This document shows, in pieces, positions 4,747 through 54,801 of a DNA stretch of 64,000 bases; position 1 is the first letter of the stretch, and each line of letters begins with the position of its first letter. Made by a program: the position numbers and the translations under genes. A model generated the notes under the pieces. The model was given only the letters and a program-made list of their open reading frames with translations, did no database searches and was not told the DNA's origin. The stretch spans positions 1 to 64,000 of the forward strand of contig JACDSH010000019.1 of assembly GCA_013450215.1 (NCBI GenBank), in the 5' to 3' direction. This stretch comes from Nitrosospira sp. GTDB taxonomy: Bacteria > Pseudomonadota > Gammaproteobacteria > Burkholderiales > Nitrosomonadaceae.

Positions 4747-6021
4747 TTGAAACGCGGGTTCTATACCATCATGGCGGCGCAATTCTTCTCGTCGCTAGCA
4801 GACAATGCATTACTGGTTATCGCTATTGCGCTATTAATAGACCTGCACGCCCCCGCCTATCTCACTCCCATGCTTAAGTTTGTATTTGTGCTTTTCTATG
4901 TAATTCTTGCCCCTTTTGTAGGCGCTTTCGCTGACTCCATGCCAAAGTGGAGGGTAATGTTTATCAGCAATGCCATCAAGATTGTGGGCTGTAGCTTGCT
5001 CTTTCTCGCAACGCATCAATACTCCGCCCTCGCTGCCTATGCAATCGTAGGCCTAGGTGCTGCCGCTTACTCCCCAGCTAAATATGGCATACTGACTGAG
5101 TTGCTACCACCGGAGAAGCTGGTCATTGCCAACGGTTGGATCGAGGGATTGACCGTTGCCTCCATCGTTCTTGGTACAGTTCTGGGCGGAATATTGATCA
5201 CACCTGCCGTTTCTTCTGTATTCCTAGCATTCGACTTTCCCTTCATCAATACCGGCGTGGACACCGTAACGGAAGCAGGCATTCTGCTTATCGCTACCTT
5301 TTACTGCATCGGAGCTACTTTCAATTTGTATATCCCCGATACCGGGGTTGATCACCGCATACTCAGGAAGAATCCGGTATTCCTGATACACGAGTTCAGC
5401 CACTGCCTGAAATTGTTATGGACCGACAAGCTTGGCCAGATCTCCCTCGCTGTCACAACACTATTCTGGGGGGCAGGTGCAACTTTACAATTTATTGTAC
5501 TGAAATGGGCCGAAACAGCGCTCGACTTTCCACTCAGCAAGGCCGCTCAGTTACAAGGGGTAGTTGCTCTAGGCATTGCGGTGGGCGCAGTCATGGCTGC
5601 CCGCTTAGTTTCACTGCGAAAATCGGTCAATGTGATTCCACTAGGTATTGCTATGGGCATTGTGGTGATGACTATGGTCGTGGTGCGAGACCTGTGGGTC
5701 GCGATCGGGTTACTTATGCTGATCGGCGGACTGGCTGGATATTTCGTGGTACCGATGAATGCTCTTCTGCAGCATCGTGGTCACATACTGATGGGCGCTG
5801 GTCATTCTATTGCAGTACAGAATTTCAACGAAAATCTAAGCATACTTATAATGCTGTCCCTTTATGCTTTACTGATTAGCCTCGATGTACACGTTTACAC
5901 CGTCATCATTCTGTTTGGATCGTTTGTAGCAGTGATCATGACCCTGATCCGTAAATGGCACTTGATCAACCAGAGCAAGGAAGACTCGTTACATCTAATC
6001 GGGGAACACAAGGGCCATTAA
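4747..6021 (+). CDS. lplT: Lysophospholipid transporter LplT (MFS)
   Basis: 424 aa multi-TM protein; MAAQFFSSLADNALLVIAIALL and MPKWRVMFISNAIKI are LplT-like. Confidence 0.9.
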   Translation: MKRGFYTIMAAQFFSSLADNALLVIAIALLIDLHAPAYLTPMLKFVFVLFYVILAPFVGAFADSMPKWRVMFISNAIKIVGCSLLFLATHQYSALAAYAIVGLGAAAYSPAKYGILTELLPPEKLVIANGWIEGLTVASIVLGTVLGGILITPAVSSVFLAFDFPFINTGVDTVTEAGILLIATFYCIGATFNLYIPDTGVDHRILRKNPVFLIHEFSHCLKLLWTDKLGQISLAVTTLFWGAGATLQFIVLKWAETALDFPLSKAAQLQGVVALGIAVGAVMAARLVSLRKSVNVIPLGIAMGIVVMTMVVVRDLWVAIGLLMLIGGLAGYFVVPMNALLQHRGHILMGAGHSIAVQNFNENLSILIMLSLYALLISLDVHVYTVIILFGSFVAVIMTLIRKWHLINQSKEDSLHLIGEHKGH

Positions 6022-6030
6022 ACAGACTTA

Positions 6031-6312
6031 TTATAAAACGACCAGATCGTTGATCAACTCAGGTGTGGCCTGAATACCGTCCACTCTGGAGCGGGCGTTG
6101 GTAACACCCAGCAATACATCTTTCTCCTGTGCCGCAAAACCTTTCACAACACTTACCAAGTTCGAGACTAGATCGGCACGATGCTGGTACTAATTTAGAA
6201 CTTCCACCCAGCCAGCCTTGATCCACTCATCATTAGACTGCAGGGTATTGTAACCACACCCTCCTAAAGCAAGGGTAAGCAACAGCGTGATGGACAATAA
6301 TAGACTGCGCAA
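6031..6312 (-). pseudogene. lemA: lemA remnant: lipoprotein signal plus N-terminal part of LemA with an in-frame TAG, C-terminal part missing
   Basis: Minus-strand translation from TTG (GGAGGG upstream): MRSLLLSITLLLTLALGGCGYNTLQSNDEWIKAGWVEVLN*YQHRADLVSNLVSVVKGFAAQEKDVLLGVTNARSRVDGIQATPELINDLVVL*; internal TAG at 6190-6192 where LemA normally has Q (NQYQ). Confidence 0.85.
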
Positions 6313-6359
6313 GGACCCTCCAAAAAAATCTGATATCGGTTAAATGGGGACTGAATTAA

Positions 6360-18928: not shown

Positions 18929-19334
18929 TGGATTTACTTCGAAACAGATGGCGAGATTATACTGTGACAGGAATACTTTTCTTGTCAGTGATACTGAGTA
19001 CCGAAACTGTCACATACTTTCTTTAATATGTCCGGCAGCAATATCGATCCCGCTCGCCTCCCTCAACTGAAGACAACACCCCCGCTAATACCCAGATTAT
19101 CAAGGATTGTATGTGGTTTGTGCCTTGTTTTTTGTTACACTTACAACCTTATTCGCCCATGCAGCATCGTCTGACAGGCTGAGTGGCAGGACCAATGAAT
19201 GCTCCCTTCCCTGGAAGCCGACCGCGAAAGGATACATGCCGTCGCACTTCGATACCGGTAATGCAATAATTAGAAACCTGAAAATGGCAATTGATCCGCG
19301 GTCGGACAGCCTTTTCACGGCAGAGCTCCAAAAA

Positions 19335-21977
19335 ATGAGCTCATATTTTCCCTACCCTATCCATTGGCTGATTTGCTTACTCTGCATCTCGCTCAATGTA
19401 CAAGCCGAAACCTCTTCACCCACCCTGAACGCGATTGTTGACTCACCACCACTGGTACGCAAGACACTGAAAAACAACAGCGCCCCTTCGCCCTCACTCA
19501 TTGAAGCTGGTCGCATGCAAGGTCATTATGAGCGCAACATTGAACTGGTTAGTGAGATCCAACTGCGAGGCGTAACCCCAGTTGTAGTGGCTGAACCCGT
19601 ACCACCAACCCCCGCCACTCCGGTCGGACCGGCGATTTCTATCGCAAAGAAAATCGCCAACCCCAATAAATTCGTATTCGTGGAGACTGGCCGGATACAG
19701 GGCCATCAGGAGCGCGGAGTCGGCCCCTTATATGAGAATGAGCTACGGGGCGCCGAATCAGAAAACAAACTGGTATATATCGATGCAGATAGCCTAGAAG
19801 GGACTGTCGACGAAATGTTCGAGGCGATCGGCAATGTCGAGGTACGTAGCGATGACAAGCTCATCACGGCTAAACGAATAAGATATCTGCCAAATACCAA
19901 TGAGATTACGGTCGAGGACACCGTGCGTATCGAGCGTCGTGGCGGAAAAGATCTAATTGAAGGCTCTGAACTCAGGATAAATCTTGACAATACAACCGGC
20001 CAATTGAGCCGGGCTAATTATCGTCTTCAGGAGGGCCTTGATAAGGACGCTGGTAGCGCCCGAGGTAACGCTAAGTTACTAATGTTTGAAGGTGAGGATA
20101 GCTACCGGGTCCGGCAAGGAAGCTACACCACCTGTCCAGAAGGTGACAATGACTGGATGCTTCTGGCAGATGATCTAAAAATAGACACCAAGAAAGAGAT
20201 AGGTACCGGCCGCCATGTCAAAATCGCTTTCAAGGGGGTTCCGATCGCTTACACGCCATGGGTAAACTTCTCCCTTGACACTAAGACCCGAAAAAGCGGA
20301 TTACTCGCCCCTGAAATTGGTTACAGCGTTAGAACTGGCGCCGAGCTCACGATTCCATTTTATTGGAATATCGCACCCAATATCGATGCAACCTTCGCGA
20401 TGCGATCAATGTCTAATCGTGGCATCATGATGCAAAATGAATTGCGTTATATGGATAAGAAAGCAACCGGAAATATACTGCTAGAGATCTTACCCAGCGC
20501 AACTTCAGGCGTAATTCCAGGTGCAGCCACTTCCGATCTGAATCGATATAGCCTAGCCTTCAAACACGAGCAGAGGTTTGGCTATGGATGGACCGGCAAT
20601 GTTGACTTCAATAAGGTTTCCGATAATAACTACTTCATTGACCTAGCCTATGATGTCACAAAGACCAGCCAGGCAAATATGAAGCAAGAGGCCTCTCTAG
20701 CTTATCAGCGTAATCTATGGGAGGACGGAACGGTCAACTTCAAAGTGATGACACAGAGCTTCCAGAATATCCGCGGGGGAGGGGTTTACCAACGTCTGCC
20801 TGAATTCACATTCAATATCAACAAACCCAATATTTTCGGTGCGGAGCTTGATCTGAAGAGCAGTTGGGCAAGCTTCTCTCATAGACTGGCTAGCATGCCA
20901 ACTGGTAATCGCCTAGTATTTAATCCCAGCATCAGCTTTCCTCTGCGCAAGGAATTCGGTTTTATTATCCCGAAGATTGGCATACACCACACCAGCTATG
21001 ACCTCAATGCCAGCCAGGCCACAACCAATTTGGGCAGCTCTCTGCAGCCGGATCGTACTATGCCCATACTGAGCTTGGATAGTGGCCTCATTTTTGACCG
21101 TGATGTCGCAGTACGTGGGGAGCGCTTCACCCAGACCCTCGAACCACGGGCTATGTACGTCTATGTCCCTTTCCGCGACCAGACCCGCCTACCCAACTTT
21201 GATTCAATCTTTACAGATTTTAGTTTCATACAAATCTTTAATGAGAATCGATTCAGTGGGAATGATCGCATCAATGACGCTAACCGAGTCACACTGGGAC
21301 TCACTTCACGCTTCCTCGAAGCAAACACCGGTAAGGAACGTCTAAGCCTGAGCATTGGTCAGCAGATTTTCTTCACGCCGACCCGGGTAACCATGTCAGG
21401 AGTAGCCCCAACCAATAGCAAGATAGACCTTATCGCTGGAATCACGGGTCACTTCACGCCACAAATCAAGACCGATACGACCGTTCAGTTTGATCAGAAT
21501 AATGCAGAAGTCGGCGTGGTACGCTCCGCCTTAAGTTATAGTCCACAAATGGGCAGAGTCATTAACCTCGGCTACCGATTCTCCCGTTATGGGCCTGGTG
21601 CACTTCTGAATCCAGTAGTGATACCGTTATATCCTGTGAATCCATTTGGGCTTCACCAAGCCGACATCTCGGCCCAGTGGCGTTTCAATGATAAATGGCA
21701 GGCTGTCGGAAAAATAAATTACTCTCTTCTAGACTCCAGAACTTTGGAAAGACTGGTAGGGATTGAGTATAATGCCTGCTGCTGGTCGCTACGATTCATG
21801 TACTCACAGATAGCTCTTACTCCCCTGCATTCAACCCAAGCGGTCTTCCTACAACTTCAGTTGAATGGCCTGATGGGGATCGGCAATAGTCCACTTAAAG
21901 CACTTGAACAGAGGATCCCCGGCTACACCGATACCAGTCCAACCGCGAGAACTACCGGGGGCGCTATGAGGCCATGA
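19335..21977 (+). CDS. lptD: LPS assembly protein LptD (ORF is open from 19107; start at 19335 preferred)
   Basis: Signal peptide MSSYFPYPIHWLICLLCISLNVQAET; OstA region; YTTCPEGDNDWMLLADDL; beta-barrel ending with YNACCWSLRFMYSQI. Confidence 0.93.
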   Translation: MSSYFPYPIHWLICLLCISLNVQAETSSPTLNAIVDSPPLVRKTLKNNSAPSPSLIEAGRMQGHYERNIELVSEIQLRGVTPVVVAEPVPPTPATPVGPAISIAKKIANPNKFVFVETGRIQGHQERGVGPLYENELRGAESENKLVYIDADSLEGTVDEMFEAIGNVEVRSDDKLITAKRIRYLPNTNEITVEDTVRIERRGGKDLIEGSELRINLDNTTGQLSRANYRLQEGLDKDAGSARGNAKLLMFEGEDSYRVRQGSYTTCPEGDNDWMLLADDLKIDTKKEIGTGRHVKIAFKGVPIAYTPWVNFSLDTKTRKSGLLAPEIGYSVRTGAELTIPFYWNIAPNIDATFAMRSMSNRGIMMQNELRYMDKKATGNILLEILPSATSGVIPGAATSDLNRYSLAFKHEQRFGYGWTGNVDFNKVSDNNYFIDLAYDVTKTSQANMKQEASLAYQRNLWEDGTVNFKVMTQSFQNIRGGGVYQRLPEFTFNINKPNIFGAELDLKSSWASFSHRLASMPTGNRLVFNPSISFPLRKEFGFIIPKIGIHHTSYDLNASQATTNLGSSLQPDRTMPILSLDSGLIFDRDVAVRGERFTQTLEPRAMYVYVPFRDQTRLPNFDSIFTDFSFIQIFNENRFSGNDRINDANRVTLGLTSRFLEANTGKERLSLSIGQQIFFTPTRVTMSGVAPTNSKIDLIAGITGHFTPQIKTDTTVQFDQNNAEVGVVRSALSYSPQMGRVINLGYRFSRYGPGALLNPVVIPLYPVNPFGLHQADISAQWRFNDKWQAVGKINYSLLDSRTLERLVGIEYNACCWSLRFMYSQIALTPLHSTQAVFLQLQLNGLMGIGNSPLKALEQRIPGYTDTSPTARTTGGAMRP

Positions 21978-45196: not shown

Positions 45197-47107
45197 TTAT
45201 GTGTCCATTCTGCGCATATACCTTGCATCGCATGTCAGTTCCAATAAGTCTATCTTAGAGATCTCTACCTCAACATGTGTTTCTGGTGGCATGTCTGGCA
45301 ATGATGGTACCCGCATCGCCAACGGCAAACGATCTAATCCCACCAGGCCCTCCTTCAGAACCTGTGCACTAGTCGTATTGATATTCTCCTGCAACAGCCA
45401 GCGCAGACACCAATAGCGCTCCATCCTGCGCTGGAATTCTCCATAAGCCTCATAGACCGCTTCAAAATCTCTTATCGCTAAAAGCAGTTCATCACCTTCT
45501 TTGGCATAGGGTGGCTCTTCTCTACGCAACAACGCGATTAATTGCCGTTGATTAATGAGATCTATATAGCGCCTCAGTGGTGAACTAACCCAGGCATACT
45601 GCGATACTCCCAGTCCATGATGCGGAGCGGGGGAGGTACTCATCCGCACTTTCCCACCGCTCTGATTGCGATAAATTCCAGCAACGCCTCCATCAGCCAA
45701 TTGTTTACCCCACTCGGTATTAACAAAGATCATCAACTCTGACACCACCTTATCAATTGGTGAGCCGCGTCGACGTTCGGTGATCATGACAAAATCATCT
45801 TTAACGTTAAAGCTGTAATCTATCCTATCGTTGTTGCTGTCGCTGCCTTTTCCCCTCAACGCCTCCATCCTGTTAGCGAAATTCCACAATGACCTCAATT
45901 CCCGCCCAAAAGGATGATCGAGAGTATTACCTGTCAGAGTCTGTTCGTTAAAGTGCTGCTCAAGTGTGTCGTGTCTCAGATTTGCAGAAATTCTCACCTG
46001 CTCGATGCAGCTGTGCGTATTAACTATGGCGAAGTCATCTGATACCTCCAGATACATTGAAAGCACTGGGCATAGACGATCTTCACCAAGGGTGTAGTGA
46101 TGTATTACAGCCTCTGGCAGCATAGTGATCTTGTCGCCCGGCATGTAGACGGTAGAAAGTCGCTTCGCGACCACATCGTTCAGGGGCGATCCTGCCCCAA
46201 TCCCCAATGCCGGGGCAGCAATATGGATTCCGATGCGAATGCTACCAAACGGTAGAGGTGTTACTGAGAAAGCATCATCAATTTCTGTGGTAGTGGCATC
46301 GTCTATACTGAAAGCAACTACGTCAGCTACCGGCAGGTCTGACCAGGTGATCTGGTCGTCGCTTCCGTTGAGTGAGCTGAATCCTATGCCTTCTGGAAAA
46401 TATTCCAGTAGAAATCGGTTGAAATGATAATCATGTGAGGATGGAATTGCACCACACTTTTCCAGAAGTTTGAGGGCACTTAACTTCACTGCAGTGCAAG
46501 CAGCATCTAAAGCCTTCCATTCAATGCTTCTCTTGTCGGGCTGGTAGAGTAGTTCTGACAGCATCGGCCTGAACTCATCTGGCAATGTGAATGTAATTAA
46601 TAGACTCACATATCGAGATTGCTGCTCTGCTTGGAGGTTTTTTTTATCTTGGCTAGCAAGCGCTGACTTAAGTGCTTCGGGTGGAGCTGCTTTGTATCTA
46701 CCCCGCCCCTTTTTATAGAAGTACATCGGCGCTCCATGCAACCGACTGAGCACTGCTGCCAATTCCACTGGGCTAGGTGAATGTCCAAAATAATCCGCCG
46801 CTAGTGTGTCACTGGCGAATTCAACATCAGTTGCGCAACACTCCCAGAGGAAACTCAAATCAATTTCATCTGCAGTTTTCTGTGCAATATGTATGAACTC
46901 AGACAGCGGTGGCGCATCAAATTTCAGCAGAACTGACACACTCTTTATTTTAGAGCGCTTACCGTGAGGGGCCTCTACTTGCAGAGAGGTTATGTTATCG
47001 GCAAGAATCATTCCTGCCTTAAAAGTACCGTCCTCTTCGTAAAAAACATTCATGAGTTTTATTGCGGGTATGAATGGCGAGAGTGGCTGAAATAGCCGAG
47101 CCAACAT
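45197..47107 (-). CDS. RNB-domain ribonuclease (RNase II/R superfamily)
   Basis: AFSIDDATTTEIDDAFSV; GIHIAAPALGIGAGSPLNDVVAKRLSTVYMPGDKITMLPEAV; SPLRRYIDLINQRQL. Confidence 0.92.
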   Translation of the reverse strand: MLARLFQPLSPFIPAIKLMNVFYEEDGTFKAGMILADNITSLQVEAPHGKRSKIKSVSVLLKFDAPPLSEFIHIAQKTADEIDLSFLWECCATDVEFASDTLAADYFGHSPSPVELAAVLSRLHGAPMYFYKKGRGRYKAAPPEALKSALASQDKKNLQAEQQSRYVSLLITFTLPDEFRPMLSELLYQPDKRSIEWKALDAACTAVKLSALKLLEKCGAIPSSHDYHFNRFLLEYFPEGIGFSSLNGSDDQITWSDLPVADVVAFSIDDATTTEIDDAFSVTPLPFGSIRIGIHIAAPALGIGAGSPLNDVVAKRLSTVYMPGDKITMLPEAVIHHYTLGEDRLCPVLSMYLEVSDDFAIVNTHSCIEQVRISANLRHDTLEQHFNEQTLTGNTLDHPFGRELRSLWNFANRMEALRGKGSDSNNDRIDYSFNVKDDFVMITERRRGSPIDKVVSELMIFVNTEWGKQLADGGVAGIYRNQSGGKVRMSTSPAPHHGLGVSQYAWVSSPLRRYIDLINQRQLIALLRREEPPYAKEGDELLLAIRDFEAVYEAYGEFQRRMERYWCLRWLLQENINTTSAQVLKEGLVGLDRLPLAMRVPSLPDMPPETHVEVEISKIDLLELTCDARYMRRMDT

Positions 47108-47135
47108 TGGCTAATGCCTATCGTTAAGCTGATGC

Positions 47136-47159
47136 TTCGGCAGTATATTATACTCCGAA
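47136..47159 (-). promoter_or_regulatory. Candidate promoter -10 (TATAAT) embedded in a 24-nt imperfect palindrome upstream of the RNB ribonuclease gene
   Basis: Plus strand ttcgg c agtata t tatact ccgaa; minus strand contains TATAAT at 47152-47147; RNB start codon at 47107. Confidence 0.45.
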
Positions 47160-47281
47160 CCAACTGCCAGTGCCTTCGCTTAGGGCGTTTGAGAGGGGAT
47201 ATGATGCTGTGACGAGCCCGTTGATACTAGTGATAAGGAAACATAATCGGCAAAACTCTTGTAGATTCTGCTCGGCAGCGG

Positions 47282-50008
47282 CTAGCTCAGCTTTCCGTGA
47301 CACTGTTTATACTTTTTCCCAGATCCGCATGGGCAAGGGTCATTGCGACCGACCTTTTCATCTTGTCGAACGAATGGCTGATGCTTCTCCTGCCCATCCT
47401 GCTGTTCCCCATCTTCCCCAAATATTTCCTCATAAGCCGCATGGTGGTATTGAACATTAACTGGCGGCCGCGTTGCCTCAGCCACCTCTTCCACTTGCTG
47501 CTCACTTCTGATCTGAACTGTCATGAGTATTCTAGTAACTTCAGCTTTGATTTCTTCCAGCATGGTAGTGAATAGATCAAAAGCCTCCCGCTTATATTCT
47601 TGCTTAGGATTTTTCTGTGCATAACCACGCAAATGGATACCCTGGCGCAGATGATCTAGAGCTGCCAAATGCTCGCGCCAGTGGGTATCTAAACTTTGTA
47701 ACATTACCGCGCGCTCATAATGATGCATTACATTGGCGCCGACCTGCTGCACCTTTCCTTGATAATGATCGCTGACCACTCCAGCAACACGCTGAAGCAG
47801 ATTTTCTTCATGTAGATCTGGTTCTTTCTCCAACCATTCATGCACTGGTAGATGTAGCTGATACTCTGCAGTTAAAGCCTTCTCTAATCCCGATACGTCC
47901 CACTGCTCTTCGACGCTTTGTGGTGGTATATAGAGGCCGATAAGACTACTTATCGCATCCTCACGCATCGCCGTGATAGTTTCTGAAATATCTTCTGATT
48001 CCATTAATTCGTTACGCTGCTGATATATCACCTTGCGCTGATCATTGGCAACATCATCATATTCCAGCAATTGCTTGCGCATATCAAAGTTACGCGCCTC
48101 TACTTTTCTTTGGGCATTCTCAATGGCGCGCGTAACCCACGGATGCTCGATCGCCTCACCTTCAGGCATATTTAATCGCTGCATAATGCTGGCTACGCGA
48201 TCGGATGCAAAGATACGCAAGAGAGGGTCTTCCAACGATAGATAGAAACGACTGGAACCAGGATCACCCTGTCGCCCAGATCGTCCGCGCAGCTGATTAT
48301 CCACGCGGCGTGATTCATGACGTTCAGTCCCAATGATATGTAACCCTCCTTGCTTTAACACCTCATCGTGGAGACTTTTCCACTGCATCCGTAACTCGGC
48401 AACTTTCTCCCCCTTAACCGACTCGTTCATACTGCTGTCTAATTGGACGCGGTCTATCTCGGGCTCCGGGTTACCACCCAATACAATGTCAGTTCCTCGT
48501 CCGGCCATATTGGTCGCGATAGTGACCATATTAGGACGTCCAGCTTGCGCGACTATTTCTGCTTCGCGTGCATGCTGCTTCGCATTCAGTACTTGATGCG
48601 GCAGTTTTTCGTGGGTGAGCAGTCCAGACAATAGTTCATTACTTTCAATTGAAGTCGTACCCACTAAAACTGGTTGACCTCGTTGGTAACAGTCTTTGAT
48701 GTCTGCAATAATTGCTTGATTCTTCTCATTTGTAGTGCGAAACACCTGATCCATGCGATCGTCACGTACCATTGGGCGATGAGTCGGAACAATTACTGTC
48801 TCCAACCCATAGATTTGTTGAAATTCATAAGCCTCAGTATCTGCTGTGCCTGTCATACCGGAGAGCTTTTGATACATACGGAAATAATTCTGGAATGTTA
48901 TCGAGGCGAGCGTCTGGTTCTCTTTCTGAATCGGAACGCCTTCTTTCGCCTCTACCGCCTGATGCAATCCTTCCGACCAGCGCCTGCCAGACATCAGGCG
49001 ACCTGTAAATTCATCAACAATAATCACTTCATTGTTCTGCACCACATAGTGCTGATCAAGATGAAATAGGGCATGGGCACGTAGTGCTGCGTACAGATGA
49101 TGCACTAGATTGATATTGCTGGGATCGTAGAGGTTGGTCCCAGCTAGCAGTAGGCCCGATTGGGTTAATAATTTTTCTACATGCTCGAAACCTGCCTCAC
49201 TCAGCAAGACTTGCTGCGTTTTTTCATCCACGCTAAAATCGCCCGGACTATCCTCTTTCTCCTGTCGCGCTAGTCTTGGAATTAACGCGTTCATCCTGGT
49301 ATACACTTCGCTACTACCTTCTGCCTGACCCGAAATGATCAAAGGCGTACGTGCCTCGTCAATCAAGATTGAGTCGACTTCATCAACAATTGCGTAGTTG
49401 AGGTGACGCTGAACCCGTTCTGAAGGGTGGTTCACCATATTGTCCCGCAGATAATCGAACCCAAATTCGTTATTTGTGCCGTAAGTAATGTCGGCTGCGT
49501 AGGCGGCCTGCTTTTCGCCATGATCCTTTTGTGAAAGAATCACGCCCACACTGATCCCGAGAAACTGGTAAATCCTTCCCATCCACTCGGCATCCCTCTT
49601 GGCCAGGTAATCGTTCACAGTTACTAGGTGCACGCCTTTTCCAGACAACGCATTAAGATACGAAGGCAAAGTCGCCATCAGAGTCTTACCCTCCCCTGTA
49701 CGCATCTCCGCAATCTTGCCGCTATGAAGAACCATGCCGCCTATCAACTGCACACCGAAGTGGCGCATCCCTAATACCCGCTTGCTAGCTTCGCGCACTA
49801 CAGCAAATGCCTCTGGTAGCAAGGCATCCAAAGTCTCTCCTTCTGCTATACGGCTCTTGAACTCATCAGTCTTGGCGCGCAACTCTATGTCAGTAAGCAC
49901 TTCAAATCCAGGCTCCAGCGCGTTAATCACGCCCACCGCCTGAAAATATTGCTTGATCAGCCTATCATTGCGGCTGCCAAAGATTTTCTTAAGCAGATTA
50001 TTCAGCAT
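47282..50008 (-). CDS. secA: Protein translocase ATPase SecA
   Basis: [41 protein letters not shown]-terminal zinc motif [17 protein letters not shown]. Confidence 0.98.
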
Positions 50009-50041
50009 AAATTTCCGATTAAATTCTGTTTAAACAGTCTT

Positions 50042-50077
50042 CCAAAAGCAAAGGGGTGAGGTTTTCGGCCTCACCCC
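50042..50077 (-). terminator. Rho-independent terminator between the M23 locus and secA (minus strand)
   Basis: RC: GGGGTGAGG(CCGAAAA)CCTCACCCC followed by TTTGCTTTTGG. Confidence 0.85.
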
Positions 50078-50100
50078 CCACAGTAGATCATCATTTCAGC

Positions 50101-50740
50101 TTACCCAGTCGATTTTAAGAATCGTGTCAGATTCTGCGGTAAGCTCCTGTGTCTGACTTCAAAATGAAGGTGTGAGCCGATAGAATGCCCGGTACTTCCA
50201 ACTTCTGCAATTCTCTGTCCCCGTAGAGCTACTTGACCAGTTTTGACGAGACGCCTTGCAGCATGGGCATATCGACTGACTAGGTCATTGCCGTGGTCAA
50301 TATCAACCATTTTACCATATCCAGGCTGATAGTCAGAATAGACTACAACGCCACCTGCTGAGGCTATGACTGGCGTCCCTATCTCAGCAATAAAATCAAC
50401 CCCTTCATGGAATGCACTTTTCCCTGAAAATAGGCCTATACGCAAACCACAGCCGCAGTAGTTGGGTTTGCATCTGTCCCATTCTAAAAGCCATGGCGTT
50501 CAAACTGTCGCGCAGGTATGATTGGTTTTTTTGGTGCTCTTCCTGTTTCACTCTGAGCACTAGAGATCGGAGGGAAGGGCTATCTATTTTATCTGCATAG
50601 CGTAAAGACAGATAATTAAACCCCATTACCAGCATTATAATTACGAATAAGAGAGCTTCCGACAGCATCGTCAAATTCGTGCCGGTTAGGGTTAGAGTCC
50701 CTGCTTTTAACAAATTACTGGAGACCAGAATTACATTCAT
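50101..50740 (-). pseudogene. M23 (LytM) family metallopeptidase, apparent internal deletion plus frameshift
   Basis: N-terminal part from ATG 50740 (MNVILVSSNLLKAGTLTLTGTNL...LNAMAFRMGQMQTQLLRL) is out of frame with the C-terminal peptidase part (RIGLFSGKSAFHEGVDFIAEIGTPVIASAGGVVVYSDYQPGYGKMVDIDHGNDLVSRYAHA...HLHFEVRH); typical central linker missing. Confidence 0.75.
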
Positions 50741-50766
50741 CTTATTACCCAAATTCTCACGCAGAT

Positions 50767-51267
50767 ATGACCGCACGCAAGATTGACTTCTACCTAACCA
50801 CTCTCGGCACCGCTGATCAGCAAGGCCTATTCGCTCAGGCGAGTCAATTGACACTGATGCAACGAGCATTTACGGAATTTGTTCCGCCTCGATTATCAAT
50901 ATACTGCACCGTCGGCTGGATTTCCAAAGGAAATTTAACTATCTATGCTTGTAACGGCGCAATTGCAGCAAAACTGAAACAGATTTCACCTTCGTTGCTT
51001 TTAAAATTCCAGCAGAATAATTTTGAGGTGGCTGCGATCCGGGTTGTTGTGCATGCACATAACCACTTTGCAGTTGTTGACAAGAAGATCGATAAAGACT
51101 TGATTATCGGCCCACTTGGTTTGGACAACTTGAGTCAGCTGGCTGCGGGACTACCCTCATCGCCACTAAAAAGCGCCGTTGAATCACTACTTAAAAAACA
51201 AATCAAGCCAGCGACATCTCAGCCTAAGGCTGCGTTAGCGGCGCCTACTGTCCGAGTCCCACAATAA
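50767..51267 (+). CDS. dciA: DUF721/DciA-like protein (putative replicative helicase loader family)
   Basis: 166 aa; WISKGNLTIYACNGAIAAKLKQISPSLLLKFQ resembles DUF721; position divergent from the M23/secA locus is typical of betaproteobacteria. Confidence 0.7.
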   Translation: MTARKIDFYLTTLGTADQQGLFAQASQLTLMQRAFTEFVPPRLSIYCTVGWISKGNLTIYACNGAIAAKLKQISPSLLLKFQQNNFEVAAIRVVVHAHNHFAVVDKKIDKDLIIGPLGLDNLSQLAAGLPSSPLKSAVESLLKKQIKPATSQPKAALAAPTVRVPQ

Positions 51268-51481
51268 AAGATCATCTTCTCATATAGCGCAAGGCTCTCG
51301 CTGCCCATGATGCCGCGAGAGCGGGAGTCGATGGCCACTAAACAGCTTACTTCCCACCCCAAATCTGGGAATAGTTTCAGTCATTTTCATGCATTGGCGC
51401 TTGATCCCTAATTAGCCCTACATCCAGCGAATTTCTCTTTTTTAGCCCACACAACATCACAAAAATCCTTAATAACCCTTA

Positions 51482-52648
51482 TCAATCGGCTTGTTTTCGT
51501 AGGAATGCAGGGATATCCAGCACATCTACCCCGGATTGTCTCATCGCTTCCACTGTTAAACCGTGCCTTCTGTTGGTGCGGATTGCAGCAGGAATCTCCG
51601 ACCCCTTCCAGCTCGAAGCGTCTACCAATATTGCATTGTCGGTTCCGGTTCTGGTATGGATAATACTCAACGGTTTCGGCTGAGTATGGCTAACCACACC
51701 ACCCAACCCGGTTGCCACCACGGTGACCCTAAGGTTATCTCCCATGTTCTCGTCGATTACGGTGCCAACAATTACAGTTGCATCTTCAGCCGTAAAGTCT
51801 TTGATCGTGCTCATCACTTCATGAACTTCACGCATCTTCATTCCCGAGCTGGCGGTGATATTCACCAAAACCCCGCGCGCGCCAGAGAGATTCAAGTCTT
51901 CCAGCAATGGACTTGATACCGCCTGCTCTGCTGCTACGCGGGCCCGATCTATGCCCGAGGCGAATGCGGAGCCCATCATCGCCACTCCCATTTCCGACAT
52001 CACCGTCTTAACATCAGCAAAGTCTACATTTACTAACCCCGGACAGTTGATGACCTCTGCAATTCCAGCAACTGCCCCATACAAGACATTATTTGCAGCC
52101 TTGAATGCGTCCAACATACTTACATCCTCTCCCAGCACCATCATCAACTTATCATTAGGGATCACGATCAACGAATCAACATGTTGCGACAGTGCCTCCA
52201 TTCCAACTTGTGCCGCTTTAAGTCTCTTACCCTCAAATGTGAAGGGCTTTGTCACCACCGCTACAGTAAGTATGCCCATCTCCTTAGCTACCTGTGCCAC
52301 CACGGGTGCGGCACCTGTACCCGTTCCACCTCCCATACCAGCGGTAACAAATAGCATATCTGCACCTTCAATCAGTTCGGCTATACGGTCACGGTCTTCT
52401 AGAGCGGCTTCCCGACCAATCTCGGGGTTTGCACCTGCACCCAATCCTTTAGTAATCTCTGCCCCTAATTGCAGCAGTGTGCGTGCTTGATTACGCTTCA
52501 ATGCCTGCGCATCAGTATTGGCACAAATGAACTCAACACCCTGCACCCCGTTCTGGATCATGTGATCTACAGCATTACCTCCGCAACCACCGACGCCGAT
52601 AACTTTGATAACTGCTTCCTGTGTTTGTGTATCCATGATTTCGAACAT
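51482..52648 (-). CDS. ftsZ: Cell division protein FtsZ
   Basis: IKVIGVGGCGGNAVDHM; GMGGGTGTGAAPVVA; C-terminal peptide DVLDIPAFLRKQAD. Confidence 0.98.
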   Translation of the reverse strand: MFEIMDTQTQEAVIKVIGVGGCGGNAVDHMIQNGVQGVEFICANTDAQALKRNQARTLLQLGAEITKGLGAGANPEIGREAALEDRDRIAELIEGADMLFVTAGMGGGTGTGAAPVVAQVAKEMGILTVAVVTKPFTFEGKRLKAAQVGMEALSQHVDSLIVIPNDKLMMVLGEDVSMLDAFKAANNVLYGAVAGIAEVINCPGLVNVDFADVKTVMSEMGVAMMGSAFASGIDRARVAAEQAVSSPLLEDLNLSGARGVLVNITASSGMKMREVHEVMSTIKDFTAEDATVIVGTVIDENMGDNLRVTVVATGLGGVVSHTQPKPLSIIHTRTGTDNAILVDASSWKGSEIPAAIRTNRRHGLTVEAMRQSGVDVLDIPAFLRKQAD

Positions 52649-52773
52649 TATGTTTCTCCTTTTATGAATTTAAAACGCTGCATTTAAAAAGTATCCTTAA
52701 ACTTTTAAGCCTAGATCTGACAGCCTTGATAACGAACGCAACACCCTCGCTCCGAAACTCTTATTTCAAAGTT

Positions 52774-54012
52774 CTAAAAATTCCCCTGAAACCAACTCTT
52801 CATCCTCTCAAGAATCTGTTTCATTGAGTTGCCCTGCAGTCGAACGTGCTGCTGACGCTGAAATTTCTCCATCCCAGCAATAATCAAGCCAACACCGGTC
52901 GAGAACCGTGGCGTACGTACTACTTCTTCCAAACTGCCCCGATACTGTGGCAACCCTAACCTTACCGGCATGTGAAATATTTCTTCACCCAACTCCACCA
53001 TTCCTTGCAGGGAACTACTACCGCCCGTAATGACGATCCCAGATGAAAGTAACTCCTCGAATCCGCTACGACGCAACTCACCCTGCACCAGCGAATAGAG
53101 CTCTTCTACCCGTGGCTCAATCACCTCCGCTAAGGTCTGCCTTGAAAGCTGGCGTGTACCACGCTCGCCCACGCCCGACACCTCCACCATTTCATGAGGG
53201 TCAGCCATACCCCGCAAAGCGCAACCATAGGCACACTTGATATCTTCTGCATCTTTTGTCGGCGTTCGCAATGCCATTGCAATGTCATTGGTGATCTGGT
53301 CCCCAGCGATCGGAATTACCGCCGTATGGCGAATTGCACCATTAGTAAATACCGCTATATCTGTAGTCCCTCCGCCTATGTCGACTAGGCACACACCCAG
53401 ATCTTTCTCGTCTTCTGACAGAACAGCCATCGCCGAAGCTAGTGGCTGCAAAACTAAATCGCGTACCTCCAAGCCACAACGTCGCACACACTTCATGATG
53501 TTCTGAGCCGCCGATACCGCACCTGTCACAATGTGCACCTTTACTTCTAGGCGTATACCACTCATACCGATCGGTTCGCGTACATCCTCCTGCCCATCCA
53601 CGATAAATTCCTGATTGAGAATATGCAGCACCTGCTGATCAGCTGGAATATTTACTGCCTTCGCGGTTTCCATCACTCGCTCTACGTCTATGCGCGACAC
53701 CTCTTTGTCTTTTATCGCTACCGTCCCATGCGAATTGAAGCTTTTGATATGGCTTCCCGCAATCCCTGTGTACACTTCACGGATCTTACAATTAGCCATC
53801 AGTTCTGCCTCTTCCAAAGCTCGCTGAATTGCGTTCACTGTAGTTTCGATATTGACGACCACCCCCTTCTTTAAGCCACGAGAAGGATGGCTGCCCATGC
53901 CAATAATTTCAAATCCACCTTCGGGTTTGACCTCGACGACGATGGCAACGATCTTTGAAGTTCCTATATCGAGGCCAACAATCAGGTCTCTGTTTTCATT
54001 AACTCTACTCAT
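52774..54012 (-). CDS. ftsA: Cell division protein FtsA
   Basis: LIVGLDIGTSKIVAIVVEV; VDIGGGTTDIAVF; IVITGGSSSLQGM. Confidence 0.97.
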   Translation of the reverse strand: MSRVNENRDLIVGLDIGTSKIVAIVVEVKPEGGFEIIGMGSHPSRGLKKGVVVNIETTVNAIQRALEEAELMANCKIREVYTGIAGSHIKSFNSHGTVAIKDKEVSRIDVERVMETAKAVNIPADQQVLHILNQEFIVDGQEDVREPIGMSGIRLEVKVHIVTGAVSAAQNIMKCVRRCGLEVRDLVLQPLASAMAVLSEDEKDLGVCLVDIGGGTTDIAVFTNGAIRHTAVIPIAGDQITNDIAMALRTPTKDAEDIKCAYGCALRGMADPHEMVEVSGVGERGTRQLSRQTLAEVIEPRVEELYSLVQGELRRSGFEELLSSGIVITGGSSSLQGMVELGEEIFHMPVRLGLPQYRGSLEEVVRTPRFSTGVGLIIAGMEKFQRQQHVRLQGNSMKQILERMKSWFQGNF

Positions 54013-54033
54013 CTATTTTATGTATCCTTAATC

Positions 54034-54801
54034 TCAAGCTGCTTTCTTCACGCTTGCTATGCGGTTTTCGTGCTGCAGTGTTTCCTGTGTACGAACCGCA
54101 AAGCCATTGGAATAGCGTAAATCAACATATGTAAAATTTTGATTCAACTGCGCGACGCTGCGGTCGTATGTTGAAACATAACGCAGCAACCGATCTTCCA
54201 TTCGATCACGTCCTAACTCAAGCACAGTCCCATTTTCTAGTTGAATTCTCCAGGCGCGTCTCGGCGACAGAACTAACTGAGCAATATCCTGCTGCAACGG
54301 CTGCAGTAATTTACTGAAGGCAACGTATTGCGCCACCACATCGAAGGAGCTTCCGGTTGGCCCGATGAATATCGGCAGCCTCTCCTCACCCCCAACGACT
54401 GATCCGACAAATAACTCTCCGTGACTATTTACAAGCTCTTCTCCGCCCCACTGCGCTACCGCCACATGCTCTTCCAAAGTTACCTCTAGACCCTGTGGCC
54501 AATGCCGCCGCAAACTTGCAACCCTTACCCATGACAGCCTCTCGAATCCTTCACGTATTGCGTCCAGATTTATCGTCAGAAAATTACCTTCAATCTCACC
54601 TCGAACTACTTTATCTATTTGCTCACGAGTAACGTGTTTCAATTCCTTTCCGCTATTGCTAGCCCCAATCACTTTCACCTGCTTCACCGGAATCATTGAT
54701 GAGTTCACTGCCCATGACCCAATGATGTAGGTTGCCGCAAGTGCCGCAATCCACAGCAGCAGATTGGCCAATAGGCGTAAGGCCTGGTGGTTATCCCACA
54801 T
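54034..54801 (-). CDS. ftsQ: Cell division protein FtsQ
   Basis: Single TM plus POTRA and FtsQ domain; between ddl and ftsA. Confidence 0.93.

Follow-up and report, generated by a model that had tools for sequence, protein, structure and literature searches.

Does the M23 (LytM) peptidase gene that lies beside secA in this Nitrosospira genome still encode a working protein, or is it the remnant of one? We addressed this question in a window of 64,000 nucleotides, i.e., the whole stretch of DNA analyzed, which belongs to a Nitrosomonadaceae genome of 1.61 Mb in 59 contigs (99.8% complete). A sequence-only reading of the window had proposed that the gene is internally deleted and frameshifted. 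Both parts of this proposal were borne out, since the gene shows a 278-bp gap and its two halves lie in different frames relative to the single open reading frame (ORF) of its relatives.

Layout of the M23 locus between dciA and secA

The locus and its neighbors comprise the following features.

50740..50101, minus strand, 640 bp: broken M23/LytM gene, between dciA and secA
50453..50740, minus strand: N-terminal remnant of the M23 gene (MNVILVSSN...MQTQLLRL), aligning without gaps to residues 1-96 in the closest relative with an intact gene
50450..50453, minus strand: deletion junction, GCT (50453-50451) and then one G unlike the relatives, from a nucleotide alignment with nine relatives
50101..50450, minus strand: C-terminal remnant with most of the M23/LytM peptidase domain, from Pfam M23 and the alignment
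47282..50008, minus strand: secA, intact downstream neighbor, a 908-aa ORF whose SecA is 96% identical to that of the relative
50767..51267, plus strand: dciA (DUF721), intact divergent neighbor (Pfam DciA, E=1.3e-11)

Judging by eye, the N-terminal remnant consists of a short cytoplasmic stretch followed by one probable transmembrane helix and the start of a coiled linker. Its frame runs from the ATG at 50740 to a TGA at 50405, so that the N-terminal fragment is now 111 codons long. The LytM frame is offset by +1 from the N-terminal one, stays open for 114 codons, and ends at the stop at 50101. Both frames are open around the junction, where they overlap.

A 278-bp deletion relative to intact orthologues

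Orthologues of the M23 gene were sought in 40 relatives and in GTDB genomes. In the other genomes of the genus where the locus was found, the orthologous frame was open over 313-348 codons in every case (7/7); G008, of the same genus, was left out of this count since its contig starts about 150 bp ahead of secA. The alignment of the same-genus loci L035-L041 showed one unbroken M23 ORF of 918-924 bp, encoding 305-307 residues from the equivalent ATG. These searches place the genome in the family Nitrosomonadaceae, the best relatives being metagenome-assembled genomes (MAGs) with the labels Nitrosomonadaceae and Nitrosospira and, after these, isolates of Nitrosovibrio, Nitrosospira, and Nitrosomonas.

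Alignment with the intact M23 genes beside secA, the check that had been suggested, revealed a single gap between the window copy (640 bp) and that of its nearest relative, L035 (918 bp), corresponding to a deletion of 278 bp. GCT occurs at both ancestral ends of the deleted segment, and one copy of these 3 bp is left in the window at 50453-50451. The junction at 50453-50450 thus falls within the interval 50445-50465, where it had been expected, and the loss amounts to some 93 codons, a little below the "about 100 or more" residues first estimated. As 278 cannot be divided evenly by 3, the halves of the gene are in different frames. The deletion takes away the linker as well as the first strand of the peptidase domain (W-x-x-S-x-F-G; W-F-T-S-S-F in relatives), ahead of the zinc-ligand motifs. 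The aligned relatives are intact and the linker part lies inside the deleted segment, in agreement with the claim of a full-length ancestral protein carrying a linker. Such a pattern would fit slippage or illegitimate recombination at microhomology. Conservation of the compact arrangement in many relatives, which had been named as an objection to a lesion, did not materialize, as the arrangement occurred in none of the relatives examined.

The remaining peptidase domain

The LytM frame matched Pfam Peptidase_M23 (PF01551) with 106 bits (E=1e-30; cut-off, 28.7), compared with 117.9 bits for the intact L035 protein, and no Pfam match was obtained for the N-terminal frame. The zinc-ligand motifs H-x3-D and H-x-H are present in the remnant as HEGVD and HLH, and YAH is also kept. 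The suggestion that the catalytic domain is intact therefore holds for the motifs HEGVDF and HLHFEVRH and not for the domain as a whole, in which the first strand is deleted and five residues are replaced, namely the D and P of R-x-D-P (RIDP), the R and T of STGRSTG, and the P of QNPTRF. In 80 relatives, these residues vary little or not at all. Unlike the intact relatives, the window copy does not have a complete exported domain that shares one frame with its anchor.

Selection on the window branch

Selection was assessed with a custom codon branch model of the MG/GY type, using F3x4 frequencies and a fixed eight-taxon tree. The dN/dS of the M23 gene was 0.98 on the window branch versus 0.065 elsewhere (P=1.8e-10), and a value of 1 fitted the window branch equally well (P=0.96). 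Taken separately, the N-terminal half (1.20) and the LytM half (0.86) were both compatible with 1; for the LytM half, 0.25, the level of ftsZ on the window branch, was rejected (2dlnL 4.87, P about 0.03). On the sister branch leading to L035, the gene had a dN/dS of 0.17, and the rise was not significant. The neighbors on the window branch gave values of 0.17 for secA, 0.22 for dciA, 0.25 for ftsZ, 0.11 for ftsA, and 0.54 for ftsQ. Parsimony with L036 as the outgroup (L037 for RNB) yielded 21 non-synonymous and 9 synonymous changes in the M23 gene on the window branch, versus 79 and 124 in six neighbors (Fisher P=0.0025).

Across 45197-54801, dN/dS on the window branch also exceeded the background in ftsZ (0.25 versus 0.04), secA (0.17 versus 0.06), and ftsA (0.11 versus 0.02), which suggests that selection is generally weaker in this lineage. 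Given the values of ftsQ and ftsZ, part of the rise in the M23 gene is genome-wide. The window lineage therefore combines a mild general relaxation with a complete relaxation in the M23 gene.

The C-terminal remnant carries 11 non-synonymous changes. Of the differences, 5/12 fell in the 36% most conserved columns, where 4.3 are expected at random; there is no excess, and a rate matching chance is what a neutral sequence should give. Neither half has gained further stops or indels. Of simulated sequences given 30 neutral changes, about 45% were without a stop, so the missing extra stop is weak evidence against a pseudogene.

Two marks of a pseudogene are thus present, i.e., a frame disrupted relative to the orthologues of nine relatives and the loss of purifying selection. 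On these grounds, we consider the M23 locus beside secA to be, in all likelihood, a pseudogene. It is an ordinary one, newly described at the secA-adjacent locus. The sequence-only reading had offered a choice between a recent event and a LytM part still translated on its own. The first is not supported, given the dN/dS of about 1 in both halves along the entire branch leading from the split with the nearest relative, which makes the loss of constraint old on that scale; the second fares no better, as selection keeping the LytM part was not seen.

Alternative explanations

Translation of the LytM fragment alone, from the TTG at 50445 or from the other candidate start, the ATG at 50310, would yield a truncated enzyme or an activator. 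The 114-codon open frame and the retention of HEGVDF, YAH, and HLHFE speak for it. Nevertheless, we regard it as very unlikely, because the dN/dS of the C-terminal half does not differ from 1, with the level of ftsZ rejected, the first strand of the domain is gone, and (nearly) invariant residues are replaced. The TTG proposed as a start does exist in the LytM frame, but by inspection the 16 bases upstream (CTACTGCGGCTGTGGT) contain no Shine-Dalgarno-like purine run, and an export signal is missing as well. Independent translation was accordingly rejected on dN/dS and on the missing start signals. The fragment might instead be retained as a short separate protein with a new and less constrained role, e.g., in cytoplasmic or regulatory zinc binding, and we give this version even less credence.

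An assembly or sequencing artefact, in which a gene that is really intact was assembled with its linker collapsed, seems more improbable again. The genome is a single draft assembly, and short common ends such as GCT could be misjoined. However, a common end of 3 bp is too short for a typical assembly collapse, and SecA, DciA, FtsZ, and FtsA on the same contig are under ordinary constraint. As far as could be tested, the objection also fails on selection, because an error at one junction would not give neutral change on both sides of it. The 278-bp deletion is therefore very probably real in this one genome of the species.

Finally, programmed ribosomal frameshifting or transcript slippage could exploit the overlap of the frames to produce a compact anchored peptidase, but this can be practically dismissed given the neutral evolution of both halves, the lack of conservation of an arrangement found in no relative, and an overlap in which inspection showed no slippery homopolymer except short runs. 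We also rejected a recoding or structure element at the junction, where the local RNA structure was not beyond chance (RNA fold z = -0.47).

Proposed course of the decay

The pseudogene descends from a gene for a 305-residue protein in which a coiled linker tied an anchor in the inner membrane to a LytM (M23) peptidase domain in the periplasm; from its domain, the protein was probably a murein endopeptidase or an amidase regulator. The loss of 278 bp between two short GCT repeats deleted the linker together with the first strand and put the remainder out of frame. The LytM fragment is left with neither a membrane anchor nor a signal sequence, so that, even if made, it would presumably remain cytoplasmic and not reach peptidoglycan. 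Selection no longer acts on either half, both having a dN/dS that is not distinguishable from 1.

Three other M23 genes remain in the genome.

M23 paralogue 1, 435 residues, beside an anmK-like gene: MepM-like layout (by eye, from layout and sequence)
M23 paralogue 2, 349 residues, a LysM plus M23 lipoprotein beside a pcm-like gene: NlpD layout (by eye)
M23 paralogue 3, 403 residues, a coiled-coil M23 protein before a ctp protease gene: EnvC layout (by eye)

The loss was probably tolerated because the genome retains these LytM proteins of probable MepM, NlpD, and EnvC type and because genome reduction is under way in the lineage. Great Lakes freshwater Nitrosospira with reduced genomes of 1.45-1.68 Mb and about 50% GC have been described as streamlined (PMC9239080), and the size of the window's genome, together with the GC content of the window (47-51%), fits that group.

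The gene has also been lost or altered elsewhere in the family. In G011, G013, and G016 (L128, L129, L130), dciA directly adjoins secA with no trace of M23. In Nitrosospira sp. Nsp11 (L056, about 5437-6357), the orthologue is frameshifted after ADKIDSP, with its N-terminal 55 residues in a separate frame, which may be due to an error in sequencing or to a second lesion of independent origin. With several family members having lost or broken the gene independently, the LytM peptidase next to secA appears dispensable. The locus is a clean case of a gene decaying as the genome shrinks in a Nitrosospira-like lineage of fresh water. Automated annotation would list a pair of short genes here, one of them a "peptidase," in place of a dead gene.

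Lipid A genes around the locus

In many betaproteobacteria, lpxC adjoins ftsZ. In the window, lpxC is missing between ftsZ and dciA (51268-51481), and the same holds for L035. This is in line with a family-wide absence, as neither LpxC nor LpxB was above the cut-off in 25/25 Nitrosomonadaceae genomes searched, including the window's genome (G000); both were present in 16/16 genomes from other families of the order. A search also found LpxK to be absent from the window's genome. LptD was present in 41/41 genomes (lptD lies at 19107-21977 in the window), and the window's genome has two LptF/LptG proteins. Lipid A gene loss has been reported for N. europaea and N. multiformis (PMC3087551), and a phosphosphingolipid gene cluster for N. 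eutropha (PMC11324152). A literature search found no paper joining M23 peptidase, secA, lpxC, and ftsZ.

Comparison with known systems

The best-matching characterized LytM domains for the intact L035 protein are those of the MepM/ShyA-type murein DD-endopeptidases (M23; PDB 6UE4, 6U2A), with matches to NCBIfam ShyC (2.5e-30) and MepM (5e-30) and to PDB ShyA (5e-29). Against the NCBIfam equivalogs of this type, L035 scored 104.5 and 103.2 bits, far below the cut-offs of 341 and 700, and hence the intact protein is not assigned to the ShyA, ShyC, or MepM types. The window copy differs from all of these in being broken.

The streamlining freshwater Nitrosospira (PMC9239080) resemble the window's genome in their size of about 1.6 Mb, their GC content of about 50%, and their loss of dispensable genes; a keyword look-up in that paper found no mention of the M23 gene beside secA.

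The window copy also resembles the M23 (LytM) metallopeptidases found next to secA in Nitrosomonadaceae and other betaproteobacteria (L035-L114). In the relatives examined, these likewise lie between dciA and secA, and they have the N-terminal anchor sequence and the LytM domain in common with it, with 89% identity between L035 and the window copy over the common C-terminal part. Whereas these relatives keep the gene in a single frame, encoding 305-307 residues within the genus, the window copy has lost 278 bp, its reading frame, and its constraint.
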